Source: Candidatus Brocadia sp. (GTDB lineage: Bacteria > Planctomycetota > Brocadiia > Brocadiales > Brocadiaceae). Taken from it: a DNA stretch of 40,491 bases. Position numbers and translations under genes: made by a program. The notes below the pieces were generated by a model that saw nothing but the letters and a program-made list of their open reading frames with translations, made no database searches and was not told the DNA's origin. Shown here in pieces: positions 2,225 to 22,037 of this stretch (positions are counted from its first letter, which is position 1; each line of letters begins with the position of its first letter). The DNA lies in assembly GCA_011525665.1 (NCBI GenBank), contig WYAU01000070.1, forward strand, positions 1 through 40,491, read 5' to 3'.

Positions 2225-5200
2225 TTATGATAAACTGCTCTCCACTATTTTGATTTCATCTTCTGTCAATCCATACAATTCATATACCAACTGATCAATC
2301 TGAAGATCGGTTGCATCGATCTGTCGCTGGATGGTGGTCTTGTCATGATCCGTCTTTGCTGATGCTATTTGTTTGTGCAGTTCGAGCATCTGATCGACAA
2401 GTTCTACCATCCGGTCGTGGCTGGCTTTTTCCACCGAGTGAGAAATGTCAATGGTGGGAAAGGGTAAGCTATATAGCTTTGCAGCTTTTATCTGTGGGAT
2501 AACTCGCTGTTCTCCTTGCGAGTAAATTTGATACAGGAACTGGAAGCAAGCTGAGTGAAGAACACCTAGCACAAAGCGTTCTTTAATGGAAAAGCCCGTC
2601 TTAATTCTAAACAAATACAGAGCGTCAGTAGCGTAATAACCTACTTCTTCGTCCAAAGCAATACAAATCATCCTTGTTGTTGTAAGACCGATAAACTTTG
2701 GAGGATCAAAGATTGCTGGATTTCGGGGACGGTGCAAGGCAAACCAAGGGTGTTTACCTTCTGCTACCTCTTTACAGGTAATTTTGTCGCGATATCTGTT
2801 TAGATGCCCTCTTGTGTTAGGATATTTCTCAATGTCATCGCCGCGTGTTAGATAAATTATGAAAGTGGAAGAGTCAATGACACCATATCTGGATATATGC
2901 TTCCCAAGTACAACAGGACGCAACACGTCATTTTCAATCTTTTCTTGCTTTATTATTTCTTTCTCAACAATAAAGGCTTCGGCATAGTCTGGGCTTATAC
3001 CACGCTGTATTTCTCCATCGATGATATCCGAAAATTTTGGGAATGTTTGAGTAAGTTTCTGAAAGAGCGCAACTGCATTAAGATTGAGCGTGAAATAGGT
3101 ACATAAGGGATCAGAGAGAACAACCTTACGCCACTGATTACAATTTATAGGCTTTAGTTCTTTTAGTCGATGCGATTTTTCGTCTGGTATACTGTGCCTA
3201 AAATCATTTACTGTGATAAGTCCTCTTGTGGTTGGTGTACTGCGTGCAGTAAATACTAAAATAGTTGAAGTGTTAAGAACCTTAGAACCAAATACTTTTT
3301 CCCCTAAGTTTATCACAGTCTGTAAGTTAAAGTTCTCGATTATAAATCGACGTAACAATTGGGCATCTGACTGAGTAAGGAACGTGCTGGGAATAATCAT
3401 GCCAAATATACCATCACGAGTTAACAGTTTTGCGGAGAGGTGAATGAAGTACATATAAGAATCAATCATTCTTACAATAATATTTCGGTGTTTTCTGCGG
3501 AGATAATCCAACTCACTGTTCGAAAAGTCAGCGCCCCATGGCGGATTTCCGATTACTACATTAAATCCGTCTGCCTTTATGATCTCAGGAAACTCGGCCT
3601 CCCAATCGAAGACATTGATCCGATATCGTTCCTCTTCATCAAACAGGCTCATCTGGCGACCTTCGTAAAAGTCTGGGCCAATGAGTGAGTTGCCGCATTT
3701 GATGTTATTGCCGAGATCTGGCAGGGCACGTTCGTGGAACAGTCTGAGTTGTTTTACAATGGTCTGCTCGGACTCGCCTTCCAGCACCTTCAAAAGGAGC
3801 GATAGCTTGGTTACCTCCACAGCCTGTGGGTCGATGTCTACACCATAGATGTTATTGAGCAGGATACGCTTGCGCTCGGCGGTGGTTAGACGCCAGTCAC
3901 CACCCATTCCCTGGTATAATGTCGGTGAGCGGCCTGTTGACCATTTCTCAGGGCCATCGGCCACATACCAGTCACGGTGCCAGTCAAGCAGGTATTTGTA
4001 TGCACCCAGGAGAAAAGAACCGGAGCCGCAGGCAGGGTCGAGGATGCGAATTTTAGCAACAGCCTTCGGAGTAACGTTCCTGATTTTAGATTTCGGATTT
4101 TGGATTTCGGAATTCACAACCCCCTTGCCCCCTTTGCTAAGGGGGATTTTCGCACGTTCACCATTCTGTAATTCACATTCAAGAAGTTTACCTACCGTGT
4201 TCTTTACGATATAGTCAACGATATAGGTCGGTGTATAGTAAACCCCGCCTGCCTTCTTGACCTCCGGCTTGTCCTCCACCACTGCACGATGGCCAGCCGT
4301 AAGACGGATTACCTTGCCCAAAAATTGCTCGTAGACCTGACCCAGGATGTCAGCGGAGAGGACGGAGAATTCGTACGGACTGTCGGGATAGTAGAGGTTT
4401 TTGATGATATCCTTGAGTACGCTGTCGTCAATGGTTAAACTCAGGGTGAGGGTATCTGGCGATTCAGAACGACCCTTTTCTTTTTGAAAGTGAAACAAGC
4501 CGGAGTTGTAGCGTTCATCGGCGCGATGAAATATTTCGCAGAGACGTGCGTACACACGGTCGCCATTCTGCAAGGCCATGAGACGACCATACCTTTCGAT
4601 ACCACGATCCTCGCATATACGCAGGAAGATAATGCGGTCGATGGTGCGCTGGATGGCAAAGTTCAGGTCGTGCTGGGTTAAATCCGGATTGCGTAGCGCC
4701 ATGTTGCGGGCAAGCATGTCTCGCCAGGATTCAATTTCTTTTAGAAATGCGGTATCAACCTCGGCGGTGCCTTTTTTGGCCTTGCTCGATTCGGCATATT
4801 TATCAAAGGTGCCCTTGAGGACTGCATCGCGTGAGAAGGTGGAGGCGATCTCATCCCATCGCTGTGAATACTCGGTGTAGTTGAGGTAAAGGATTCGGGC
4901 GATAGAAGGTTTGTCGGTCTTGTCCGGTTTAACCCTGCAGTCGTAAACGACAAACTCCTCAAAATCAGTAAGGATACTGAGCGGGAGCCTGGCAGACCAT
5001 GCGTAGCGGCGCAGTTGAAATGCGGGGTCGACATCGTCTTTGAGATTGACCGCGGGCTTCTTCGTCTCCACAAAAAACTTGCGGACACCACCGATGCGGA
5101 AGCAGTAGTCCGGGGCCTTGGTCATACCGCCAACCTTGATGGAGTCCTCGTGAATCACGTCTTTGTAAGCCTCGGCATAGCCCTTCTCATTATCCACGTC

Positions 5201-5335
5201 CCAGCCCAATATCTTGAAAAACGGATCAATAAACTCACGCCGAAGCTGGGTTTCGTTGTATGTACCGGAACGATATGCCTCGCGATTACAGTCGAATCGT
5301 CCTGTCAATTCAAGAATTTCACGAGGAACGGTCAT
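2225..5335 (-). CDS. Type IIG-like restriction enzyme and adenine-N6 DNA methyltransferase
   Basis: The 1036-residue single chain would both cut and methylate DNA. The N-terminal region (about 1-170) resembles a PD-(D/E)xK nuclease: D76 in APDYCF and E90-x-K92 in FVETKKP. A helical linker follows. The methyltransferase core has the lead-in GVYYTPTYIVDYIV (364-377), SAM-binding motif I DPACGSGSF (433-441) and catalytic motif IV NPPW (597-600), the signature of N6-adenine methylases of the Eco57I/TaqI-C type. Residues from about 750 should hold the target-recognition domain, and the end is a coiled-coil-like helix. The length fits family members. Residues about 397-420 are a translated repeat (see 4076-4149). 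It leads a minus-strand cassette with two unknown genes. A BREX PglX-like methylase is an alternative, but the N-terminal nuclease favours type IIG. The recognition sequence cannot be read from the sequence. Confidence 0.88.
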   Translation of the reverse strand: MTVPREILELTGRFDCNREAYRSGTYNETQLRREFIDPFFKILGWDVDNEKGYAEAYKDVIHEDSIKVGGMTKAPDYCFRIGGVRKFFVETKKPAVNLKDDVDPAFQLRRYAWSARLPLSILTDFEEFVVYDCRVKPDKTDKPSIARILYLNYTEYSQRWDEIASTFSRDAVLKGTFDKYAESSKAKKGTAEVDTAFLKEIESWRDMLARNMALRNPDLTQHDLNFAIQRTIDRIIFLRICEDRGIERYGRLMALQNGDRVYARLCEIFHRADERYNSGLFHFQKEKGRSESPDTLTLSLTIDDSVLKDIIKNLYYPDSPYEFSVLSADILGQVYEQFLGKVIRLTAGHRAVVEDKPEVKKAGGVYYTPTYIVDYIVKNTVGKLLECELQNGERAKIPLSKGGKGVVNSEIQNPKSKIRNVTPKAVAKIRILDPACGSGSFLLGAYKYLLDWHRDWYVADGPEKWSTGRSPTLYQGMGGDWRLTTAERKRILLNNIYGVDIDPQAVEVTKLSLLLKVLEGESEQTIVKQLRLFHERALPDLGNNIKCGNSLIGPDFYEGRQMSLFDEEERYRINVFDWEAEFPEIIKADGFNVVIGNPPWGADFSNSELDYLRRKHRNIIVRMIDSYMYFIHLSAKLLTRDGIFGMIIPSTFLTQSDAQLLRRFIIENFNLQTVINLGEKVFGSKVLNTSTILVFTARSTPTTRGLITVNDFRHSIPDEKSHRLKELKPINCNQWRKVVLSDPLCTYFTLNLNAVALFQKLTQTFPKFSDIIDGEIQRGISPDYAEAFIVEKEIIKQEKIENDVLRPVVLGKHISRYGVIDSSTFIIYLTRGDDIEKYPNTRGHLNRYRDKITCKEVAEGKHPWFALHRPRNPAIFDPPKFIGLTTTRMICIALDEEVGYYATDALYLFRIKTGFSIKERFVLGVLHSACFQFLYQIYSQGEQRVIPQIKAAKLYSLPFPTIDISHSVEKASHDRMVELVDQMLELHKQIASAKTDHDKTTIQRQIDATDLQIDQLVYELYGLTEDEIKIVESSLS
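4076..4149 (-). repeat. Dispersed repeat translated in frame inside the methylase gene
   Basis: Positions 4116-4149, read on the minus strand, match 37725-37759 in the intergenic region before the pentaheme cytochrome. Both have the pattern AATCCCCCTTA...AAAGGGGGCAA.GGGGGTTGT. A tract of near-repeats of the type CCGAAATC/CCAAAATC follows. The insertion adds about 24 residues (IPLSKGGKG onwards) between the YYTP lead-in and motif I of the methylase without a frameshift or stop. Confidence 0.75.
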
Positions 5336-8687: not shown

Positions 8688-10064
8688 TTACCACATTTCA
8701 GGTTTGGCCAGGACACCCTCGGACCAGTTGATGATAGAGCCGACGTCTACTGGTTCTCCGCCAATGGCCATCTTATGCTGCCGTCCCTCCAGCAGTTTTT
8801 TCTCTTCCCCCTCCACTATCAAGGAGGCCTCGCCTTTTATTGCGGTTACAACAGTAGCAAAATCCCTTGCCTGGATATTCACAGAGCCCTTATTCATTCT
8901 GATCCGTCCATTCGGAGTATCAATTTCCAGTGGCACTTCCAACTCCTTCACGGAAACGATAATCTGCCCGGATTTCAGCTGTATCTTCAACGGGTCGACA
9001 CAGTGCACTTCGGTATTTGAGTCCATAACCAGATCGACTCCTTTCCTCATGGACACGGCAGTTCTTCCTTCACTGCCGGTTTTCAGAGTCGTGCCATTCC
9101 GGAAACTGGTACGATTTGACACTTCCATCCAGTCCTTTCCTTCCGGGGATAAAAAGTGAATTTCTCCGCGGGTATTCAGCAAATTGATTTCTCCGCCCCT
9201 GTGGGTCAAATAGAAATATACCGCTGCCAATACGAGCGTTCCGCATCCAACTATAGCGCCTAAGAAGATAAATCCCCTTCGCGTGGGTTTTGCAATGAGT
9301 ATTCCCAACTCATAAAGAACGATCATGGGCGCCGCGGTCAAACTCTGGGTAAAAGGATCGGGCGGTGTAACGACTGCGGCAATAATAAAAATTACCAGGA
9401 TGGCGTACTTTCTCCATGCTATAAACTTATCCGGGGTAATAAATCCTATCTTTGAGAGGAGTAACATGATGAGCGGCAGCTGGAATACCAATCCCAGGGC
9501 CACCGTCAGCATGAAGACAAATGAAACATAATCCTTCATCGTGATGATGGGCTGTATGCCGGGGCCGAGGATACCGATCAGGAATTGCAGGCCAAAGGGG
9601 ATGAGTAAAAAATACCCGAAGAGCCCCCCTACCACAAATGCCATATATGAGACAGGGAGAAATATGAGCACATATCTCTGCTCCTTTTTATAGAGACCCG
9701 CGCTCACAAATTTCCATATCTGGTAAATAACGAACGGATAGGACAGAAAAACCGCCGTGATAAAGCACAGCTTCATATAAGCATAGAAACCCTCCTGGTA
9801 ACTCAGCACCTGCAGCTCTGTTGATAAACCAACCTTTTCCATGGCAAATTTATGGGGTCTTTTCGCCATATCCAGGATCTGCACCTTAAAAAGCCAGCAC
9901 AATATGAAACAGAAAACAACGGCGACCATGGAATAGATAATCCTCCGCCGCAACTCTTCCAGATGTGCGCCTAATGACATCCGGATATTTCCAATTTCAT
10001 CAATTATTTCGTCTTTATCGGTCTTTTCCACACCGCGCCCTCGCTGAATTTTACAAAGTCCCAT
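8688..10064 (-). CDS. tatC: TatC translocase fused to a seventh helix and a FecR-like domain
   Basis: Residues about 29-258 are TatC, the substrate-receptor component of the twin-arginine pathway that exports folded proteins. They include HLEELRRR (34-41) before helix 1, six membrane helices, and VVTPPDPFTQ before the last helix. Normal TatC ends here at about 250 residues. This protein continues with another helix (263-287, GFIFLGAIVGCGTLVLAAVYF) and about 170 residues resembling FecR: TTLKTGSEGRTAVSMRKG, VDLVMDSNTEVH, then repeated beta-strand patterns to the end. TatC is N-in/C-in, so helix 7 would place the FecR-like part outside the cytoplasm. The start is uncertain: the ATG at 10064 has a weak RBS, and M29 would give a typical TatC N terminus. 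No tatA or tatB is nearby. Confidence 0.93.
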   Translation of the reverse strand: MGLCKIQRGRGVEKTDKDEIIDEIGNIRMSLGAHLEELRRRIIYSMVAVVFCFILCWLFKVQILDMAKRPHKFAMEKVGLSTELQVLSYQEGFYAYMKLCFITAVFLSYPFVIYQIWKFVSAGLYKKEQRYVLIFLPVSYMAFVVGGLFGYFLLIPFGLQFLIGILGPGIQPIITMKDYVSFVFMLTVALGLVFQLPLIMLLLSKIGFITPDKFIAWRKYAILVIFIIAAVVTPPDPFTQSLTAAPMIVLYELGILIAKPTRRGFIFLGAIVGCGTLVLAAVYFYLTHRGGEINLLNTRGEIHFLSPEGKDWMEVSNRTSFRNGTTLKTGSEGRTAVSMRKGVDLVMDSNTEVHCVDPLKIQLKSGQIIVSVKELEVPLEIDTPNGRIRMNKGSVNIQARDFATVVTAIKGEASLIVEGEEKKLLEGRQHKMAIGGEPVDVGSIINWSEGVLAKPEMW

Positions 10065-11570: not shown

Positions 11571-14195
11571 TTATTTTTTTACCGCGTCTTCGAGGTCCTT
11601 CAGACGTTTTAACTTTACCGCTTCATCCTGAATACGCGTAAGATTCCCGATTGTTTGTGAAGTGCCCCACCACCAGCTGATGTCCTGTTGGGCATGGGCG
11701 GTACCTTTGTAACCCTGCAAATGGTTCCAGAACCACATCTCCACATATTCCCGTTCTGTTCCACTGGGATTCCCGTCGTTCCGGGTGAATATGGCATAGG
11801 CTCCAAGGACGGGACCAATAACCGGTAAGTGGCCGCCGGTCTTCTTAAAAAGGCTGTAAATCTCCGGCCCCAGCGTGTCGGTGCCAAGTACTTTGATTAT
11901 TAAGTCGCTTAAGGGAAAAGGCGGTCTTTCTTCGGGGGATGGTTTAACGAGGTCTTTGGCGAAGAGTTCTTCCAAAATAAGCTGTGCTTCATCGATTCGT
12001 TTCCACGATTCAAACATATACCGATCCAGGGAGTCCAGCCACATGCTTGAAAACCTGCTGCTGTGGCATTGTGCGCAAAGCTCCAGCCATTGACGGCGTT
12101 TCAGCTTGCTTTCCGCAGAATAGATTTCAAGCTTTTTGTCCATAGGGGGTATTTTTATCCCATACGGGAAGTCCTTCAGCCCTGATTGAAATTCTACTTC
12201 TTTGGGAGGAATAACGCCCATACGCCATATACCCTTCGTCTCCACATTCATCTCCCAGCGGCCATCACCTACATACATGTGGCAGTATTGGCAGGTAGGC
12301 GCAAGATAGTCCTTCCCCGGAATAATCTCAAAAAGCCTCTTCTCCCAATTCCACGTCTCCCCGGTAGTATGGTAAATTACCCCCCATTTGGAGTGTTCGT
12401 AACTCTCCCAGTCAGGGTGGTCCGGCCCCATATGGCAGCTTGAGCAGGCTTCTGGTTTGCGCGCTTCAGCGGCTGAAAAGCGATGCCGGCTGTGGCAGTC
12501 ATCGCACGATGACATGTTCTGGTGGCACTGATCACACCCCACCAGGGAGTATCCTTCACCACGCCTATACAGTTCGGCATACCACGGGACAGATACGCTT
12601 CCTTCCCAACTCTGCACATGGTTCGGCTTTCCATGATCTCTTCCCCGGGCAAACTCTTCTGCTTGTTTCGGGTGACACGCCCCGCACGAATTATCCACAG
12701 TGGGCATGAAAAGGTTTTTGTGATCGTCTCCGTGACAGTAAGAACAATAGACGCCATCCGTTGTCCCCGGCCTCCAGTTATTCAGTTCTTTACCAATGAG
12801 TTCCTCAATTTCGTGTGTTTCTGCGGCAACCTCCGGATTCTTCCGGGGACTGGCATGGTTCGACATCTTCCACTCGTTGACAATGCCGGGTGAGACCTCT
12901 TCGTGACACTCAACGCATTGGCCGGGTCTGTATTTCTCCAGAAGTTTTGTATAATTCACGCTGTCCGGCGGAATATAGTGGCGGGCTGGATTAAAATAGG
13001 TGTACAAAGGGATCGGTTGATAAAACTCTCCCCAGATGCCATCACCCCGGCTTAGTCCGGCAAACTCTTCATACAGACTCTTCAGTGATGGTTCCGGATA
13101 TGTCAAAGACCGCGGTAAAGTATCAAGGGTTGGCGGAATACCTTCAGAAGAAGCTGCCTGCGATGCGATCCCCCCCTGAGCCTCAACCGGACGCGCAGGG
13201 AACTCGGGAAGCTGTCGTGCTTGTAAGGTTTTCTTCACCCCTTCCGCCGGGGGCGACGTTCCCTTCACCACTGCTTTTACATCCCCCTTTTCTACCACGA
13301 AAATCCCAAACATGCCGTTCATCATGTGCTCATGGAAGTGGCAATGAAACGCCCAGTTGCCGGGACCGACATCCTCGCCGGCAACGAAATCCAGAACGGA
13401 GGAGGTAAAAGGCGCCAGGCCGACGTTATCGGTAAGCTGACCAGTGGCCCTATCAACCCAGCGGTGACCGTGGGTGTGAAAGGTATGCATCTCCTCTGAG
13501 GAATTTATGAGATGGAACCGTATCTTTTCTCCCGCTTTTGCTTTCCAGACCAGACCGGGGAAGGCGGAACTGTCCCCTCTCATAAACTCCATATCCCCTG
13601 ATTTATCATTAAAGGTTTCGTATTCCTGCCCGTTGACATGAAACGTATGCATAAAGACGACAAACTCTTTGTCGGGCAGGACGGGGTCGCCCCCTTTCGG
13701 TTCCACGATAAGCGCGCCCCACAATCCCCGGTATAATCCTTCTTCGCCGCCCTTCTCGAACGCATGGGTGTGATAAAACCACGTCCCTGGCGTCCCGGAG
13801 GTATCCCACTCAAAAATCCTTGTATCCCCCGGCTCCACGATACTCGCGGGATTTCCGGCGATATGGGCGCCATCATCGGCTGCGGTATATTTTACCCCGT
13901 GGGGATGCACAGAGGCAGGAACGGCCAGTTTGTTGGTAAAACGAATCTTGATCTTTACCCCTTCTCTTACCTTTATCGTAGGGCCGGGGACCGAGGGATC
14001 CTCGCCTTTCAGACAGTATCCCCACGCATCAAAGAATACCCCCGGCCTGAGTTCTATAGCCACAGGCCTGGCCTCCATTTCCAGAACAACACTGCCATCC
14101 TTTCCCGCAAGGAAGGGGATTCCGGCGTATCCCTGACAAGGACGGAAAAAAAGAAATACGCACGCCACAGCAATGGAATATACCAGGTATTTCAC
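11571..14195 (-). CDS. Exported two-domain multicopper oxidase fused to an octaheme HAO-type cytochrome
   Basis: The 874-residue protein uses a GTG start at 14195, chosen because it gives a clean signal peptide (MKYLVYSIAVACVFLFF...GYA) after AGAAGAAG. A longer frame opens at TTG 14324 without one. Residues 35-310 are two cupredoxin domains. Copper motifs are HPH (97-99), HTH (142-144), HTFHTHGH (237-244) and HCHFHEHMMNGM (284-295). These give a full trinuclear-cluster ligand set and a type 1 site in domain 2. After a Pro/Gln-rich linker, residues about 420-865 carry eight CxxCH sites (427, 484, 504, 554, 564, 584, 635, 707) in hydroxylamine-oxidoreductase order, including CSSCHMGPDHPDW and the C-terminal YKGTAHAQQDISWWWG. 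It lies 318 bases downstream of the cytochrome-encapsulin gene and is its likely cargo. Nitrite, NO or hydroxylamine chemistry is inferred. The HAO cross-linking Tyr cannot be assigned without alignment; Y829 is a candidate. Confidence 0.93.
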   Translation of the reverse strand: MKYLVYSIAVACVFLFFRPCQGYAGIPFLAGKDGSVVLEMEARPVAIELRPGVFFDAWGYCLKGEDPSVPGPTIKVREGVKIKIRFTNKLAVPASVHPHGVKYTAADDGAHIAGNPASIVEPGDTRIFEWDTSGTPGTWFYHTHAFEKGGEEGLYRGLWGALIVEPKGGDPVLPDKEFVVFMHTFHVNGQEYETFNDKSGDMEFMRGDSSAFPGLVWKAKAGEKIRFHLINSSEEMHTFHTHGHRWVDRATGQLTDNVGLAPFTSSVLDFVAGEDVGPGNWAFHCHFHEHMMNGMFGIFVVEKGDVKAVVKGTSPPAEGVKKTLQARQLPEFPARPVEAQGGIASQAASSEGIPPTLDTLPRSLTYPEPSLKSLYEEFAGLSRGDGIWGEFYQPIPLYTYFNPARHYIPPDSVNYTKLLEKYRPGQCVECHEEVSPGIVNEWKMSNHASPRKNPEVAAETHEIEELIGKELNNWRPGTTDGVYCSYCHGDDHKNLFMPTVDNSCGACHPKQAEEFARGRDHGKPNHVQSWEGSVSVPWYAELYRRGEGYSLVGCDQCHQNMSSCDDCHSRHRFSAAEARKPEACSSCHMGPDHPDWESYEHSKWGVIYHTTGETWNWEKRLFEIIPGKDYLAPTCQYCHMYVGDGRWEMNVETKGIWRMGVIPPKEVEFQSGLKDFPYGIKIPPMDKKLEIYSAESKLKRRQWLELCAQCHSSRFSSMWLDSLDRYMFESWKRIDEAQLILEELFAKDLVKPSPEERPPFPLSDLIIKVLGTDTLGPEIYSLFKKTGGHLPVIGPVLGAYAIFTRNDGNPSGTEREYVEMWFWNHLQGYKGTAHAQQDISWWWGTSQTIGNLTRIQDEAVKLKRLKDLEDAVKK

Positions 14196-14513
14196 TTGTC
14201 TTCTTCTCAGCAAGACAAGAGGAGAAGAAACAACGCGCGTTGACGCACCTTCATCCCGCGCGGAATATCTCCTGAAGGCATTTCCTGTCAGGGGCAAAAG
14301 AAGTGAAAGGACGGAACATCTCAATCTTGAATCTCCGTTTAATTAGGCCTTCGGCGACTTTTTTCGTAACGCTAAGGCAGGCACCCCCCTCCTGACAGCG
14401 ATTGGCAATGCACAACGTCCCCTGCACCTCGTCGCCATCGGGAGGTGTCTCCTACCATAAAACTTTGACATTCTTTATCACACGCGATGCGTGTCCGTTT
14501 CACCCTGCGCAAC
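14196..14513. other. Gap between encapsulin and cargo genes, with repeat relic
   Basis: The gap spans 318 bases. Positions about 14432-14457 contain GTCGCCATCGGGAGGTGTC followed by TCCTACC. Read on the minus strand this resembles the GTAGGAG... element at 37494. CACGC-GAT-GCGTG (14483-14495) could form a weak hairpin just after the encapsulin stop but has no U-run. A 31-codon minus frame after GGAGACACC is Arg-rich and unconvincing. Confidence 0.4.
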
Positions 14514-15644
14514 TTACTCCAGGGTGCAGATGGACTGGGGACATTTAATCCTCAGCACGGAACTCCCTACTACCCTGAACCGATGGTTCAAATCCTGCGC
14601 CCCCCAGTACTCTACCTTATAATTTGCGCCCACTGCGAGGTCGAGATTTTGCCTGCCCGCCGCTATGACGAGCGCGACGTCTTTTTTAAACACCGGACTC
14701 GTATACACACCACCCCGCACTAATTCCCGCACCCCTTCTATTTCCAATTTTCCCGTCCTCTCGTAGACCTTATGAAGGAGGGCGTAGAGCCTTGGGCTTA
14801 CCACAAGGACATAAGGGGGAGAAAAACCTGCGCTTCTCAATTTCTCCAATGCCGATACGACGTCCTGAAAACCGTTCCCTATCACCGACCAGTCGCTGAG
14901 TTTCAGGATATTCCTTCCCGCGACATTCAAAAGACCCGCCATACCCATTTCCGCAAGACCATTGAATATCAGATCGTCCTCCCTGGCGGCAGCCGCCACA
15001 GCAGCCCCAACCGCGGCGCTTACGTCCAGCGGGGTCTCGCACTTTTTGCTGGCCTCCAGATCCCTCCAGAAGAGCCAGAAATCTTTGTAAATAAGGGGTA
15101 TATGAGCGATATCCCTTTTTAAAGAGTGAATGGCATCATTGCCCTCTCCCAGCATATCAACACTGGCCCAAGAGGGGATGGCATAGGTATCAAGCGGCAC
15201 ACACTGGACTCCCGTGCCCAGGGGTCCGTAAACCTCTATAAATTTCCTTCCGACGAGATGCCGTTCAATGGTTTCATGCACCACACGTTGCAGCTTCCCC
15301 CATTCCTCGCGCCCAATATGAATTTCAGAAGAAATTTCCGCAGACCCTTGTCCTTTCATTCCCGGAGAAGGATCCCCCTGTTTACACGCACAGGATGTTC
15401 CTGACTCCTTTGCTCCATCAGGGGAAGACGCCGGCGCGTTATGGCACGCAAGGCAACCCTGATTCAGATAGGGAACGTTTTTATGGACCCTTCTTAATTC
15501 CTCCGTGCTGTGACACGAAAGACAATCATCCTGCTTAACACACGCAAGAACCCGTGAATCCGTCTGAGGAATACAAAACATCACAAGCACGGCAACAACC
15601 CCTGCCAGACCATGAAATGTTTTACATTTATTCAGCATACCCAT
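14514..15644 (-). CDS. Encapsulin shell protein with N-terminal signal peptide and diheme cytochrome c domain
   Basis: The 376-residue protein starts at 15644, the ATG correctly spaced from GGGAGGAAAG. An upstream in-frame ATG at 15659 would put that RBS inside the gene. Residues 1-34 look like a Sec signal peptide. Residues 41-45 (CLSCH) and 64-68 (CLACH) are c-type heme sites, and C85 and C87 are extra cysteines. From about residue 105 it is an HK97-fold encapsulin: REEWGKLQRVV, LVGRKFIEVYGPLGTG, AREDDLIFNGLAEMG, and the closing pattern RFRVVGSSVLRIKCPQSIC. Shell N termini of this family face the lumen, so the hemes would line the inside and could pass electrons to the cargo. The multicopper-oxidase/octaheme gene is next downstream. 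Such cytochrome-encapsulin fusions have been predicted in anammox genomes. No canonical cargo-loading peptide is obvious in the neighbour. Confidence 0.93.
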   Translation of the reverse strand: MGMLNKCKTFHGLAGVVAVLVMFCIPQTDSRVLACVKQDDCLSCHSTEELRRVHKNVPYLNQGCLACHNAPASSPDGAKESGTSCACKQGDPSPGMKGQGSAEISSEIHIGREEWGKLQRVVHETIERHLVGRKFIEVYGPLGTGVQCVPLDTYAIPSWASVDMLGEGNDAIHSLKRDIAHIPLIYKDFWLFWRDLEASKKCETPLDVSAAVGAAVAAAAREDDLIFNGLAEMGMAGLLNVAGRNILKLSDWSVIGNGFQDVVSALEKLRSAGFSPPYVLVVSPRLYALLHKVYERTGKLEIEGVRELVRGGVYTSPVFKKDVALVIAAGRQNLDLAVGANYKVEYWGAQDLNHRFRVVGSSVLRIKCPQSICTLE

Positions 15645-16050: not shown

Positions 16051-16572
16051 TTATTTTGACGGTGAAGTTCTCTCTTTCTGGGGAGGGGTGACACCTTCCA
16101 GGCAACTGCGCAGGTCCTCTTCGATATGCTCAAGATCGGTATAGCCTTCTTCTATATGTTCGAGTTCCCCATCTTTATAATAGTAGATGATGGGAATTTT
16201 CCTGATGTTGTAAACATAACTCATTTCTTCTTTATCCTTAGCCCGGAAAATAGGAAAGGTAATCCCTTTTTTTTCAACAAAGTCTTTAACTCCTTTCACT
16301 TTATCATCCAGAGATACCCCAAGTATTTCTACCTTCTTCTCTTTATATTTTTCATAAAGGGTATTGAGTTCAGGGAGATGCTCTTTACAGACCTCGCACC
16401 ACGTTGCCCAGAATGTCACTGCCACTATTTTATCTTTATTTGACCGAATGACCTCTTTCAAATCCGTAGAAGTAATGTCTTTAACATCCTTCGCATAGGA
16501 GACATCTGATAAAGATATAATCGCAAATAAACCTAAAAATAATACCTTTCTGAAATGACAAACGATAGACAT
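16051..16572 (-). CDS. TlpA/ResA-like exported thioredoxin
   Basis: The 173-residue protein has a signal peptide or membrane anchor (about 1-27, VLFLGLFAIISLSDVSYA) followed by one thioredoxin fold of the TlpA/ResA class. The active site is WATWCEVCKEH, with Cys59 and Cys62, and the cis-Pro loop is KIPIIYYY (Pro127). Such proteins reduce or exchange thiols outside the cytoplasm, often to prepare apocytochromes for heme attachment. That fits its place just upstream of two heme-binding exported proteins. The ATG has a strong AAAGGAGGAG 6-7 bases upstream. It lies 167 bases after the FMN/ApbE gene on the same strand, with a repeat between. Substrate specificity is inferred from context only. Confidence 0.9.
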   Translation of the reverse strand: MSIVCHFRKVLFLGLFAIISLSDVSYAKDVKDITSTDLKEVIRSNKDKIVAVTFWATWCEVCKEHLPELNTLYEKYKEKKVEILGVSLDDKVKGVKDFVEKKGITFPIFRAKDKEEMSYVYNIRKIPIIYYYKDGELEHIEEGYTDLEHIEEDLRSCLEGVTPPQKERTSPSK

Positions 16573-16739: not shown

Positions 16740-18380
16740 TCACGGACTAAAGGGGCAACCGGAACCCTTACCATACTTAAAAATCTTTTCTTCTCCCTTA
16801 ACGAACTTTTCCCTTATACCTGAAGACGCATGAAATTCTATACTGCTCTGAGGCTTTTCATAAAGAAGCAGCCACTCCGCGTTGGAAAAAATGGCTGAGA
16901 GTTTTTCCCCACCTTCCGGCCCTTTAATAAACAGGACCGTTGCCAGAACTCCCGCCTCTTCTGCTGTGGCAGCAATAGCCGTAGCCGCAAGAATTTCATT
17001 CTTAACCGGTCTTCCCTCTTCGGGATCAATCAGATGGGTATAAAACTTATCCTGTACGGCAGGATACAGAGAATAATCGGCAACGAAGGCAACTCCCTGA
17101 TTAACCAGTTGCAGGGAACCTATTACCGTGTCGCCTTTTACCGGGTGGGGGATTCCCACCTTCCAGGAATTTTTTCCGGAAGGAGGCCCTAGCATGCGCG
17201 TGACACTGCCATAGTTTATACAAACTCCCGTTATCCCTGATTGCTTAAAAAGCTCCAACGCCCTATCTACCGCATACCCTTTTACGACCGGACCAAGGTC
17301 TACTTTTGTTTTTTTATGAGCAAAAGAGATTAATGTATCATTATCCTGTATCTTTATATTTTTATAAGAGACTGCCTGGAGAAGTGTTCTCAGCTTATCT
17401 TCCTTTACCTTCTTTCGCTTGCCTTTATAAATCCCCCAGTGATCCAATAACGGAGATACCGTTACATCAAAAGCACCTGCCGTAAGTACTCCGTATCGAT
17501 AGCATCGCTTTATCACCTCCAATACCTCTGTGTTGCAGGAAAAAACAGTTTTTCCAGCCTCCCTGTTCAAAGCCTGTAATTCTTTCGTGAAAAGTTTTTC
17601 AATACGCTCCATCTCATTAAACGCTTTCGTTGCCATGGAAAAGAAATGCCTCTCATTGTCCGCCTCCGCGGCCACTATTGCTTTTACCCCCTCAATAACC
17701 CTTGCAGTGGTAAAAAGTTGTTTACGGGATGACTGCAGGGCACTGACTTCTTCAGGAGTTAAGCGATGAGCCAGAGTCGCAGAGACAGGATTTTTCCTGA
17801 TATAAAATTCATTGATAAAGGCGAGCATTTTTTTGACGCCCCGGCAAACGGCTTGTACAGATACCGTAGCCCCCGTAATCCTGATAATATCTTTATTGGT
17901 CGAGAGGGGGTCGTTTAAGGACTTACCTTCGAATTGCTCAAGGAACCTCTTCCTGCTGACCTCATGTCCACGGCTCTCCCGATAGATCATTACTGCGATA
18001 TCAAGAATCTTTCCCTCCACATTTGTACTGAGTATCCATGTGATCGGGTGAAAGCAACCCATCTCTTCCGTGATAATAGCATACCGGTCTGTCACGTTTC
18101 CCTTTTTCCCAATATAGACCTGAAAGGTTGTTTCAAGATCCGGCCTCTTCAGTAATCCCTTGAAGTATTCGTATCCTTCAGGTGTAAGGGTTATAAACTC
18201 AGATTCTACCCTATCACATCCCGCAAAAACTTTTGATAAGGCATCCTCTTCTTCCAGGAAGACCTGAAACTGGTAGTTTTCCGGGGGCTCTTCCCCTTCA
18301 AGCAGGGATTGTCCCGAAGATAAATTGGGAAAAAGAATAAAACTCCACAACGAAAGCAGTAAAAAGAAATATCTTTTCAT
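16740..18380 (-). CDS. Exported FMN-binding domain fused to an ApbE-like flavin transferase
   Basis: The 546-residue protein has a signal peptide (about 1-23). Residues about 75-195 resemble the NqrC/RnfG-type FMN-binding domain. RITGATVSVQAV (167-178) holds the Thr (T172) that would take FMN through a phosphoester. Residues about 205-520 resemble ApbE, which attaches that FMN from FAD: LTAGAFDVTVSPLLDHWGI (299-317), KVDLGPVVKGYAVD (359-372), INYGSVTRMLGPPSG (388-402) and THLIDPEEGRP (448-458). The usual A-D-A-L-[AS]-T motif reads A-G-V-L-A-T (476-481), so the Mg-binding Asp is a Gly. The transferase half may therefore be weak or use another ligand. One chain holding substrate and modifying enzyme suggests an autonomous extracytoplasmic electron carrier. 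It sits 31 bases after a small membrane-protein ORF. Confidence 0.9.
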   Translation of the reverse strand: MKRYFFLLLSLWSFILFPNLSSGQSLLEGEEPPENYQFQVFLEEEDALSKVFAGCDRVESEFITLTPEGYEYFKGLLKRPDLETTFQVYIGKKGNVTDRYAIITEEMGCFHPITWILSTNVEGKILDIAVMIYRESRGHEVSRKRFLEQFEGKSLNDPLSTNKDIIRITGATVSVQAVCRGVKKMLAFINEFYIRKNPVSATLAHRLTPEEVSALQSSRKQLFTTARVIEGVKAIVAAEADNERHFFSMATKAFNEMERIEKLFTKELQALNREAGKTVFSCNTEVLEVIKRCYRYGVLTAGAFDVTVSPLLDHWGIYKGKRKKVKEDKLRTLLQAVSYKNIKIQDNDTLISFAHKKTKVDLGPVVKGYAVDRALELFKQSGITGVCINYGSVTRMLGPPSGKNSWKVGIPHPVKGDTVIGSLQLVNQGVAFVADYSLYPAVQDKFYTHLIDPEEGRPVKNEILAATAIAATAEEAGVLATVLFIKGPEGGEKLSAIFSNAEWLLLYEKPQSSIEFHASSGIREKFVKGEEKIFKYGKGSGCPFSP

Positions 18381-18901: not shown

Positions 18902-21001
18902 TCACCGCATTTCACAGCATTTTTCCCGGTAAGGCGAGATACGATAGGACTTCAGTGAATTTGCGGATACAAGAATCGTTGTGGCATTATGCATAAAGGC
19001 TGACGTTACCGGGGAAATCATCCCCAGGATACCGAGAGCTATCAAGGTACTGTTAATTCCGATTATATATCTGAAATTCTTTTTAATGCGGGACATGGCA
19101 TCCTGTGCAATCTTCCTTGCCTCGATAATTCCTTCAAGCCCTCCCGCCAAGAGTAAGACATCACAAGCCTCTTTCGCGATATCTGCACCGTTTTTCAGGG
19201 ATATGCCAACATCTGCATAAGAAATAGCAGGGGAGTCATTTATGCCGTCTCCAACCATAGCAACCACATAACCCCTGTTTTTTAAATTTTTGATTATTTC
19301 TGACTTTGTTTCCGGAAGAGCCTGAGCGTAATATTCCTCTATCCCAAGTCTTTTTGCCACATTCCGCGCAGCAGCATCGTTGTCACCGGTAAGCATGATG
19401 ATTCGCTCCACACCCGAATCCTTAAGCATCTTGAGAAATTTTTCAGAATCTTCTCTTACCTGGTCTTCAATGGCTATAATACCTGCAAGCTTATTTTCCA
19501 CAGCTATATAAAGTACTGAGTATCCCCTGTCCATAAAATCTTTTATGACAGGTTCTCCGCATTCCGCGGGAATCCCGTTGTCTTCACATATGAAGTGTTT
19601 ACTCCCTACCAGTATCCTTTTGCCCTCAATCCTGGATGCTATGCCATGGGCAAGGACGTATTCGACCTCCGCATGGTTCTCCTCATGGACAAGCCCCTCC
19701 TCTTCCGCCCTTTTCACCACGGCAGTTGCTACGGGATGTGGAAAATGCTCTTCCACACATGCCGCGTTTTTTAACAGGTATTCCCGGTTAAAACCGTTGA
19801 AGGAGAGAATATCAAAAACCTTTGGCTTTGCCGCTGTAAGGGTCCCTGTCTTGTCAAAAACAAAGATGTTTGCCTCAGCCAGTCTTTCTATAAATTTACC
19901 ACCCTTTATGAGAACATCCCGCCGGGCTGTAGCTATCATCGCTGACATGATCATTAATGGGGTTGATAATTTAATGGCACATGAATAATCTACCAGCAAT
20001 ACGGAGATAGCCTTTAGCGGATTGTTTGTAGAGAGATATATTAGTCCACTCAGGATAAAACTATAAGGAGCAATTCTGTTTGCGAGCCTTTCTGCATAGT
20101 TTTGCACATCCGCCTTCAAACCTTCCGACTCTTCAATCACCTTGATTATTTTAGAGACCCTTGTTTCATTACCTACTTTTATTGATTTTATGGCCAGAAG
20201 GCCTTCTTCCAGGACAGTACCCGCATAAACCATTAACCCTTCCCTTTTCGGCACGGGAAATGGCTCACCGGTGATTGCAGACTGATTGACCAATGCCGCG
20301 CCCTCCGCTACAATACCGTCCACCGGGATACTGCTACCCGTCCTTACAACCACAAGATCGCCCTCAGCTATGTCCTTTATATTGACCCTCATTTCCCAAC
20401 CGTTCCTCTTTATCCATGCCCACCCCTCCTGACCCTGGAACATTTTTGTAAGGCTTTCCCTAGATTTTTGACGTATCCGCCCCTCAAGGTAATCGCCTAC
20501 CTTCAGAAAGAATGTAATCAGACTTGCCGTGAGGTAATCCCCCCTCAGTAACGAAATGCCTATTGCCGCGGAGTCAAGGGTATCAACGTTCAGACGTCCG
20601 TTCAGGGCTGCCCTGAAACCTTTCCTGAAGATAGGTATGGCGCCATACAGGGCAAATAATGGCACGAAGACGAATGGTATAATTGGTCTCGCTATCAGGA
20701 GTGCCCCCGCTAACACCGCAGTCTTTTTTTTCTGTTCCAGCTTATCTCGTTTAAAATTTTCTTTTTTTACAAAAGTCAAGGGCGTCTCTTTTATTGCCTT
20801 CAACAAGGCATCTCGAACATTACGATCGCCACTGTATTTAATCAGGAGGCTCCTGGTCCGGCAATTGAAGGACACCTTCTGAACCCCCTCAACGACCGAA
20901 ACCAATCTCTCAAACCGGGTACTTTCCGGCGTATGCCTTCTGGGTATTCTGAGGCTAATCCTGATCCTCTGGGGGAGGCTATGAACAATTCTGTACTTCA
21001 T
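18902..21001 (-). CDS. P1B-type metal ATPase with SCA in place of CPC
   Basis: The 699-residue membrane pump has these parts. An HMA-like N-terminal domain (about 1-75) lacks CxxC. Membrane helices follow. The actuator has SAITGEPFPVPK (TGE at 244-246). Phosphorylation is at D383 in FDKTGTLT. The nucleotide domain ends with LTGDNDAAARNVAKRLG, and the hinge is VGDGINDSPAIS. The membrane metal site that is CPC, SPC or CPH in other P1B pumps is DYSCAIKLSTP (S340-C341-A342), with no Pro in the core motif. Metal specificity is therefore uncertain. It is the last gene of a four-gene operon. Its ATG overlaps the previous stop (ATGA, 20998-21001), indicating coupled translation. A dyad resembling a Fur-type box lies at the operon promoter, so iron or another metal is likely involved. 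Confidence 0.93.
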   Translation of the reverse strand: MKYRIVHSLPQRIRISLRIPRRHTPESTRFERLVSVVEGVQKVSFNCRTRSLLIKYSGDRNVRDALLKAIKETPLTFVKKENFKRDKLEQKKKTAVLAGALLIARPIIPFVFVPLFALYGAIPIFRKGFRAALNGRLNVDTLDSAAIGISLLRGDYLTASLITFFLKVGDYLEGRIRQKSRESLTKMFQGQEGWAWIKRNGWEMRVNIKDIAEGDLVVVRTGSSIPVDGIVAEGAALVNQSAITGEPFPVPKREGLMVYAGTVLEEGLLAIKSIKVGNETRVSKIIKVIEESEGLKADVQNYAERLANRIAPYSFILSGLIYLSTNNPLKAISVLLVDYSCAIKLSTPLMIMSAMIATARRDVLIKGGKFIERLAEANIFVFDKTGTLTAAKPKVFDILSFNGFNREYLLKNAACVEEHFPHPVATAVVKRAEEEGLVHEENHAEVEYVLAHGIASRIEGKRILVGSKHFICEDNGIPAECGEPVIKDFMDRGYSVLYIAVENKLAGIIAIEDQVREDSEKFLKMLKDSGVERIIMLTGDNDAAARNVAKRLGIEEYYAQALPETKSEIIKNLKNRGYVVAMVGDGINDSPAISYADVGISLKNGADIAKEACDVLLLAGGLEGIIEARKIAQDAMSRIKKNFRYIIGINSTLIALGILGMISPVTSAFMHNATTILVSANSLKSYRISPYREKCCEMR

Positions 21002-21186
21002 TCCTTCATTTCCCGCTCTTCGATGAGTTTCTGCAGTATTTGTTCTATTCTCTCCATCCGGGTTTCCTTCTCTTGCTTTTCTTTGATTCTCGAAAATATA
21101 TATGCCCCAACCAGGACTGCACCGGCACCTCCGGCAATGCTTACAAGTGAACCGAGATACGTTCTTGTCTTATTGATAATGCTCAT
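20998..21186 (-). CDS. Small membrane protein with C-terminal coiled coil
   Basis: The 62-residue protein has one Gly/Ala-rich transmembrane helix (about 11-33, LGSLVSIAGGAGAVLVGAYIF) followed by a highly charged helix (EKQEKETRMERIEQILQKLI) that should form a coiled coil. The ATG has AAGGAGG 6-7 bases upstream. Its stop overlaps the ATPase start by four bases and it begins 2 bases after the preceding gene, so it is surely an operon member. It is probably an accessory or assembly subunit of the pump. The family was not recognised. Confidence 0.82.
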   Translation of the reverse strand: MSIINKTRTYLGSLVSIAGGAGAVLVGAYIFSRIKEKQEKETRMERIEQILQKLIEEREMKE

Positions 21187-21188
21187 CG

Positions 21189-21590
21189 CTATTCCTCCTT
21201 CTTTTCGGGCCTACGTTTTAAAATCTCTTCTACCATCTGTTCCACCGTCCTGAGCATATCTTTTTCCTTTTTTGCTGATTCTGCCGTCGCCTCAAGGTCT
21301 TTCTGATGTGCATGTTTTGCTTCCGCCACGATATCTTCTATATCCTCTTTCCCCTTTTCATAATTTGCAACCAGCCATTCCTTAAACGCAAGTCCTTCCT
21401 TTGTAACACCGACCGCTGCCGGCCGTATCTTATTTGACAGCTTACTGATTCCAATTGCAGCAACGGCACCCAGTGCACCGCCAGCCATAAACCAGAGACT
21501 GCGATTGCTTATAAAAAAGCCACCCATATGCACCCCTCCCGCATTTTTCGTGTTTTTATCTTCTGTTTTCTCGAGGACATTCTCTTCCAT
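21189..21590 (-). CDS. Membrane-anchored accessory protein of the metal-ATPase operon
   Basis: The ATG at 21590 is preferred over the in-frame TTG three bases upstream, because AAGGAGAT sits 6-7 bases before it. The 133-residue product has a polar N terminus, one hydrophobic Gly/Ala-rich helix (about 31-50, LWFMAGGALGAVAAIGISKL), and a long charged helical tail (AEAKHAHQKDLEATAESAKK). It resembles the small DUF5132-type proteins found with HMA-domain ATPases, but I hold that assignment loosely. A role as a scaffold or metal-handling partner is inferred from position alone. Confidence 0.78.
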   Translation of the reverse strand: MEENVLEKTEDKNTKNAGGVHMGGFFISNRSLWFMAGGALGAVAAIGISKLSNKIRPAAVGVTKEGLAFKEWLVANYEKGKEDIEDIVAEAKHAHQKDLEATAESAKKEKDMLRTVEQMVEEILKRRPEKKEE

Positions 21591-21638
21591 CAAAATCTCC
21601 TTTTGTTATCGAAATTAATCACACACCTCAGGCACGTA

Positions 21639-22037
21639 TTACCTTCCCATTGCCACTTTCATTGCTATAGGTATCAGGGCATTTAACGGCTTCGGCAATA
21701 TCGCATTGACAACCATACCCGCCAAAGCCTGTAAGGCATGCTTTGTAACGGGTGGTATTGAATCCTTTTCCCCTACCGAAAACCACCACCCGTCCGCCGC
21801 CTTCTCCTCGCCTTCTTTCATGATATGATTGATGTGCTGTGTTATGGTGTGTCTGTCAATCTGGTGCTCATCAAACCTGACCAGGATCCTCCCCGTTTTG
21901 TGATTTACCGTTACCTCCGTTAATCCTTTTAAATAATCCATGATGCGTTCCTGTAAATACCTGCAAATATGCGGTTTTCCTACAAGATATTGGCTTTCAA
22001 ATCTTACCCTTCCCGGCAGAATACTCAATGGAGCCAT
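21639..22037 (-). CDS. HMA-like domain protein, first gene of the metal-ATPase operon
   Basis: The 132-residue protein has an N-terminal HMA-type ferredoxin-like fold: LPGRVRFESQYLVG, then helix CRYLQERIMDYLKGL, then VTVNHKTGRILVRFD. It resembles the N-terminal part of the ATPase in the same operon (PQRIRISLRIP, RTRSLLIKYS). Neither copy has CxxC, so classical copper binding is unlikely. The C terminus has a hydrophobic helix (about 105-130). The ATG has GGGAGGGG 8 bases upstream. The operon promoter and a palindromic operator lie about 90-135 bases upstream. It may regulate, dock with or deliver metal to the pump. Confidence 0.82.
   Translation of the reverse strand: MAPLSILPGRVRFESQYLVGKPHICRYLQERIMDYLKGLTEVTVNHKTGRILVRFDEHQIDRHTITQHINHIMKEGEEKAADGWWFSVGEKDSIPPVTKHALQALAGMVVNAILPKPLNALIPIAMKVAMGR

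Follow-up and report, generated by a model that had tools for sequence, protein, structure and literature searches.

Which chemistry would an anammox bacterium confine in a protein shell that bears its own cytochromes? The question is raised by a contig of Candidatus Brocadia sp. (WYAU01000070.1), analysed here as a window of 40,491 nucleotides, in which the gene of a diheme-cytochrome/encapsulin fusion (cEnc) adjoins a gene that fuses a multicopper oxidase (MCO) to an octaheme domain of the hydroxylamine oxidoreductase (HAO) type (MCO-HAO, published as 'NIR-HAO'). An earlier note, made from the sequence alone, had seen in the pair a likely redox nanocompartment and mentioned that cytochrome-encapsulins have been predicted in anammox genomes, which agrees with published work (PMC6934571, PMC8346489). 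Indeed, the pair is a member of the published anammox cytochrome-encapsulin type and is as such already known. Giessen & Silver 2017, as cited in PMC6934571, is credited with this double-fusion arrangement in four freshwater anammox species, and nine cytochrome-fusion encapsulins, all from anammox bacteria and all with NIR-HAO, are described in PMC8346489 as T=3 shells with a Sec-like signal and unassigned function. Beyond the cited papers, nothing further on the system was found in the open literature, subscription papers aside. With respect to this openly readable literature, the additions made here are the laccase identity of the copper half and its ligand losses, the optional shell hemes and their kinship with a hexaheme cytochrome, the clade of the HAO half, and complete genomes with hydrazine synthase (HZS) that lack the system. 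The reading that we favour, with moderate confidence, is that of an exported nanocompartment, accessory in role, which works reductively on nitrogen oxides and in the window species may reduce O2 as well. It is built on architecture, linkage, ligands, phylogeny and distribution, all of them read from the sequences.

The linkage was surveyed in 62 genomes of the order Brocadiales, including the window genome (G000), which shares its genus with Candidatus Brocadia pituitae and B. carolinensis. An encapsulin of this type is present in 20 of them; MCO-HAO is the adjoining gene in 19 of the 20, and an MCO without HAO takes its place in the remaining one (G060), so that the synteny check proposed in the earlier note found the linkage conserved. 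In particular, since 18 other genomes have an orthologue of MCO-HAO, 68-85% identical, next to their encapsulin gene, the pairing is not a matter of chance. The order is reversed in G044, with MCO-HAO upstream of the shell gene, and in G022, G023 and G040 a contig end truncates one gene of the pair. No MCO-HAO fusion was found in encapsulin-less genomes among the matches listed for the 62 genomes, and outside the order the same class yielded only two ordinary encapsulins of 277-279 aa (30-34% identity).

The distribution also bears on how central the compartment may be. HZS-alpha is present and the encapsulin absent in G033, G016 and G020, among others, G033 being a single contig, 99% complete, with two HZS-alpha copies. 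Because HZS-alpha genomes such as G033 do without the encapsulin, the compartment is dispensable for anammox as such, and the gene content of the order indicates that the system is most likely accessory and no obligatory anammox step. The opposite possibility, a core anammox nitrite reductase whose compartment would feed NO to hydrazine synthase, draws on the close kinship of the HAO half with HAOr and Kuste4574, proteins that are known or proposed to reduce nitrite (PMC12485887). It becomes most improbable in the light of the many HZS-bearing genomes, one of them finished, that lack the system, and of two recent studies on the nitrite-reducing proteins of K. stuttgartiensis, which mention neither encapsulin nor fusion. 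As a separate observation, the window genome, a 99.9%-complete draft, gave no HZS-alpha match, and finished genomes of the same genus carry two copies; near-identical duplicates were probably lost in assembly or binning.

The shell protein and its partner gene

Two heme-c sites ahead of an HK97-type encapsulin fold had been ascribed to the shell protein in the earlier note, and both are borne out by the analysis of cEnc (Table 1), as are the coordinates given there for the two genes. The gene is preceded, just upstream of its ATG, by a Shine-Dalgarno-like GGGAGGA at 15657-15651. The N-terminal segment, called signal-like by simple hydropathy rather than by a dedicated predictor, contains two positive charges, the hydrophobic core AGVVAVLVMFCI and VLA preceding Cys35. 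The 43-residue module that follows carries the heme motifs CLSCH (residues 41-45, 15524-15510) and CLACH (residues 64-68, 15455-15441), together with an extra, conserved His54, and a linker of ~30 residues joins it to the encapsulin domain. The latter reaches 206.7 bits with Pfam Linocin_M18 (curated cut-off 24.3) and 237.9 bits with NCBIfam encap_f1 (cut-off 100), which places cEnc, as a Linocin_M18/HK97 shell protein, in family 1 of the encapsulins; the N-terminal diheme c domain on the shell protein and the adjoining NIR-HAO fusion gene assign it to the cEnc subtype.

Table 1. Coordinates of the features described in the window
Feature	Coordinates	Strand	Evidence
cEnc, exported diheme-cytochrome/family 1 encapsulin fusion, 376 aa (start ATG 15644, stop 14514)	14514..15644	minus	family profiles, start context
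cEnc signal-peptide-like segment, residues 1-33	15546..15644	minus	hydropathy
cEnc diheme module, residues 34-76	15417..15545	minus	two CxxCH motifs
cEnc HK97-type encapsulin domain, residues 109-376, complete	14517..15320	minus	profile matches
MCO-HAO ('NIR-HAO'), putative cargo, 874 aa from probable GTG	11571..14195	minus	open reading frame, alignment to relatives
Two-domain multicopper oxidase half	13281..14108	minus	ligand alignment, fold match
Octaheme HAO-like half: 8 CxxCH, Asp592-His593, Trp843	11574..13082	minus	homology, alignment
Dispersed repeat inside the cEnc/MCO-HAO gap	14338..14476	minus	recurrence in genome
Exported TlpA/ResA-like thioredoxin, conserved upstream neighbour	16051..16572	minus	domain profiles, synteny
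FMN-binding domain fused to ApbE flavin transferase, locus-specific subtype	16740..18380	minus	domain profiles, synteny

Myxococcus xanthus-type EncA shells, matched end to end by the encapsulin domain (E 3e-75), are its nearest solved relatives. EncA shells of this type store iron. A shell serving mainly as a store of iron or heme, with the enzyme as its oxidase, would accord with this kinship and with the iron storage proposed for iron-rich anammoxosome particles (PMC8346489, PMC6934571); however, no ferritin-like or IMEF cargo gene was found in the neighbourhood, and we regard this role as very unlikely.

The open frame of the partner gene extends from 14324 to 11571, with TTG 14324 as its first codon. 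Relatives align only from about residue 44-50 of this frame, where a signal-like segment begins, and the likely start is therefore GTG 14195, which opens that segment. From there the protein is composed of a two-domain multicopper oxidase, a linker of ~65 residues and the octaheme HAO-like domain. The gap between the two genes, ~10-110 bp in most relatives, is 318 bp in the window, being widened by the insertion of a dispersed repeat; a 26-base core of this repeat recurs in partial copies at ~15 other places of the genome, and a 128-bp copy of 74% identity lies on contig 84. Inspection of the tails of the MCO-HAO orthologues revealed in none of them a canonical C-terminal targeting peptide of the GSL type, which is usual, though not universal, in family 1; the peptide is likewise absent in the cEnc subtype according to PMC8229669. 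Encapsulation would thus take place without the standard targeting peptide. Since both proteins carry export signals, the hemes would be fitted and the shell assembled outside the cytoplasm, presumably in the anammoxosome lumen or the periplasm, with MCO-HAO enclosed.

Copper and heme halves of the putative cargo

All 12 ligands of the T1 copper and the trinuclear site are held by the MCO half (H97, H99, H142, H144, H237, H240, H242, H284, C285, H286, H290 and M295), arranged in the motifs HxH, HxH, HxxHxH and HCHxxxHxxxxM that characterize two-domain laccases with T1 in domain 2, which it also matches by sequence (E 4e-36). The structure predictions suggested in the earlier note, built on 18-row alignments, were useful for this half only: the AlphaFold model of cEnc is poor (mean pLDDT 39), and that of MCO-HAO (45) is confident in the MCO half, whose predicted laccase fold superimposes on Streptomyces SLAC 3cg8 (Z 24.8, 242 residues, root-mean-square deviation 3.0). 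A NirK identity was rejected, as domain 1 has HPH and HTH with no T1 Cys and the full T3 set is present; the NirK model TIGR02376 gives 60.7 bits, far under its curated cut-off of 296.3. In other words, the copper half is, by sequence and predicted fold, a small-laccase-type MCO with its T1 copper in domain 2, and the 'NIR' part of the published name is arguably misleading. A laccase-like role for the K. stuttgartiensis cargo had already been raised by Tracey et al. (PMC6934571), to which the ligand table and its losses are an addition. Nitrite, NO and hydroxylamine, the substrates named in the earlier note, are retained, and because the copper half is laccase-like, O2, missing from that list, joins them as a candidate.

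The full set of copper ligands recurs in 12 relatives and is incomplete in five. Specifically, H144, H284 and H286 are replaced by L, Y and Q in G029 (Candidatus Kuenenia hertensis), H144 and H286 are missing in G031 and G035, H286 and the T1 His290 in G032 (Candidatus Loosdrechtia aerotolerans), and the T1 Cys plus several other ligands in G044. On the MCO tree these losses correspond to about three changes, at least two of which are forced by well-supported branches. They limit the appeal of an oxygen scavenger, in which heme electrons would reduce O2 to water at the trinuclear centre and thereby shield the anammoxosome. The 12 of 12 ligands in the window and in 12 relatives, the position of small laccases as closest solved relatives in both sequence and fold, the fact that the MCO is the sole half common to the MCO-only system of G060 and the proposal of Tracey et al. 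all speak for such a function; nevertheless, with ligands lost in five genomes, and with the copper site damaged in the metagenome-assembled genome named 'aerotolerans', against a general link to O2 tolerance, we hold it unlikely.

The other half matches PDB 6h5l (E 1e-164) and, with its eight CxxCH motifs and HAO homology, belongs to the HAO-like octaheme proteins, so that the gene next to the shell gene encodes, as the earlier note had it, a copper/eight-heme enzyme related to HAO. All eight motifs are kept in every complete fusion among the relatives. As the HAO half keeps its eight hemes while copper ligands were lost about three times, we take HAO chemistry to be the function that is maintained, and copper chemistry to be lineage-specific; the comparative results argue that the conserved chemistry sits in the HAO half.

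The direction of this chemistry may be read from one position. Tyr467 of Nitrosomonas HAO aligns, in a gapped alignment, with Trp843 of MCO-HAO and with Leu in Jettenia, and every fusion long enough to cover the position has W or L there; MCO-HAO thus lacks the crosslinking tyrosine at heme 4 of the oxidative enzymes (HAO, HOX, HDH). Asp592-His593 is conserved and corresponds to Asp267-His268 of the Nitrosomonas enzyme. The HAOr-type sequence HAQQDVSWWWG also has W at the tyrosine position, and a missing tyrosine is associated with reductive function (PMC12758564). In the HAO tree the fusions form one clade, sister (support 98/94) to the hexaheme-adjacent (R/b-) HAOs and the HAOr-type protein; HAOr produces NO from nitrite, and Kuste4574 is its close homologue in Rieske/cytochrome b-3 (PMC12485887). 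The HAO half is read as reductive because the crosslink tyrosine is absent and because it is sister to this HAOr/Kuste4574 group, and it would be the conserved catalyst, most likely reducing nitrite, NO or hydroxylamine. Unfused HAOs of family f3, found beside Rieske/b-type hexaheme genes (L095 6263, L096 8596, L097 8830), read SWWYG where the fusions read SWWWG, a Tyr that may or may not crosslink.

The opposite direction would make the compartment a device for hydroxylamine detoxification, with the HAO half oxidising leaked hydroxylamine and the electrons passing to the T1/trinuclear copper or to a diheme-shell sink. An HAO fold with Asp592-His593 kept, an intact MCO that offers a possible electron acceptor site in the window species, and the title of a Sci. 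Total Environ. 2020 study, cited in PMC8229669, which claims resistance to hydroxylamine stress, are consistent with it. Since the crosslink tyrosine of oxidative HAOs is absent from every checkable fusion and five relatives without a full copper site still keep the HAO half, we consider detoxification rather unlikely, though the title on hydroxylamine stress keeps it a serious rival.

Shell hemes, their kinship and the proposed role

Each shell had been expected in the earlier note to hold many hemes. This may hold for cEnc of the window, with its two heme motifs, but is not general, as the encapsulins of six genomes (G003, G010, G029, G032, G044, G060) contain no CxxCH and lack the cytochrome domain. 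A signal-like segment is present in all encapsulin orthologues with a complete N terminus, cytochrome-less ones included. In G040 (L085 1-1767, L034) two encapsulins lie in tandem, the first without and the second with the diheme domain (this second copy being split over two contigs), and MCO-HAO follows the second; the copies are sisters in the encapsulin tree (99/92), and mosaic shells are therefore predicted. G021 has an N-terminally truncated extra copy between the TlpA gene and cEnc (L077 11649-12149), unlike the window, where no encapsulin remnant was found upstream of cEnc. The second heme motif of G022 is CLSFH, so that one shell heme is probably gone. The cytochrome domain is reported to be missing in B. 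carolinensis (PMC6934571), yet the two heme motifs are encoded there in the reading frame of the shell. The ATG is out of frame, owing to one surplus A in a poly-A run close by (L083 11440-11480, minus strand), and the reported absence may be an annotation or sequencing artefact. A separate diheme gene supplying the cytochrome-less shells was rejected, since no stand-alone one was found within 6-8 kb where sequence reached, and none convincing genome-wide in G029, G010 and G044. The encapsulin tree, weakly resolved, suggests that the domain was gained or lost about four times. Judging from these genes, the shell heme domain is optional; no correlation of heme loss with copper loss was apparent across the relatives.

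As to its origin, a profile of the 43-residue module retrieves as best match, after encapsulins, the same hexaheme gene in G000 (E 0.005), G031 (6e-4) and G028 (0.008), and again in G029 (0.01). The cytochrome matched, of ~364 aa, is encoded immediately 5' of an HAO gene and is preceded by two frames of ~250-275 aa and one of ~590-600 aa, which is the layout of kuste4569-4574, with kuste4573 as the hexaheme. Profile-profile comparison of the two gives 96% probability over 34 columns, and in a ranking of 167 diheme modules, all from fetched loci that are enriched in HAO neighbourhoods, ten hexaheme first pairs come next after the encapsulins. A common origin of the shell module and the first pair of the hexaheme, partner of the Kuste4574-type HAO, is probable on these comparisons, which suggests that the ancestors of the shell cytochrome and of the cargo HAO were already partners in electron exchange. 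A Kustc0457-like origin was rejected, since no match to the shell domain was obtained for the diheme gene that adjoins the orthologue of HAOr (L100 6232-7059). Tentatively, the system might be a captured respiratory module: a Rieske/cytochrome b-type operon would have supplied both an HAO, which became fused to a small laccase, and the first diheme part of the hexaheme partner of that HAO, which became fused to an encapsulin. If so, the shell itself would serve its cargo as electron-transfer partner and perhaps as docking surface; several lineages have no heme lining, and in one it would have become optional through duplication of the shell gene.

In the accessory, reductive compartment that we favour, electrons would pass from the shell diheme domain to the HAO hemes, and in species keeping the ligands an intact laccase-type centre could reduce O2 with heme electrons, the whole acting perhaps as a safety or buffering device. 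As a rule HAOs form trimers, and so do small laccases, which would suit a trimeric fusion. A number of points weigh against this proposal. Half of the high-quality genomes are without the system, and with some shells devoid of cytochrome as well, electron transfer from cytochrome to cargo is not general. The diheme/hexaheme match is short and partly driven by CxxCH (E 6e-4 to 8e-3), and the 2020 title on hydroxylamine stress could mean oxidation, not reduction. The natural variants described above offer direct tests of the role: the copper site is intact in some species and eroded in others, the shell has hemes or lacks them, and some anammox bacteria have no compartment.

Neighbouring genes and known systems

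Genes of the TlpA-like thioredoxin and the FMN-binding/ApbE protein lie upstream of the locus in many relatives. Among the 20 encapsulin genomes, 10 carry the ApbE subtype of the locus (at least 58% identity), whole or in pieces, as does one genome outside this set. In G017, G019, G021, G026 and G035 the subtype is broken or partial and in G027/G028 it is missing, for which reason the FMN-ApbE neighbour was rejected as an obligatory electron donor. The association is suggestive of an electron-delivery or cofactor role. The protein is possibly a self-flavinylating exported redox protein, of a subtype decaying in several relatives. The window also encodes a P1B-type metal ATPase with an HMA_2 domain and a separate HMA_2 protein (18902-22037), which Jettenia-type genomes, B. 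pituitae and G040 also have close to the locus, a TatC fused to a C-terminal FecR-like domain (8688-10064) and an Eco57I-like restriction-modification protein with HSDR_N and TaqI_C-like domains (2225-5335); no Rfam RNA family was found in it.

Compared with the published anammox cEnc/NIR-HAO systems, the window has the same N-terminal diheme, family 1 shell, NIR-HAO immediately downstream, anammox host and absence of a standard targeting peptide, and apart from its wide, repeat-bearing gap no essential difference. The systems of Scalindua rubra and RIFCSPHIGHO2 (PMC6934571) place an encapsulin beside an MCO or MCO-HAO, but their shells have no cytochrome domain and the S. rubra MCO has no HAO. 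With small laccases such as Streptomyces SLAC the MCO half shares both cupredoxin domains, T1 in domain 2 and all T1/T2/T3 motifs, and it differs in its fusion to HAO, in the loss of ligands among relatives and in its electron donor, where heme presumably takes the place of phenols. HAOr (kustc0458) and Kuste4574 of Rieske/cytochrome b-3 are octaheme proteins of a related clade, HAOr equally without the Tyr, whereas MCO-HAO is fused to an MCO, linked to an encapsulin and set in a separate sister clade. Finally, the Kuste4573-type hexaheme resembles the shell's diheme domain in its first pair and is also encoded beside an HAO, but it is a full-length cytochrome with six hemes and no shell.

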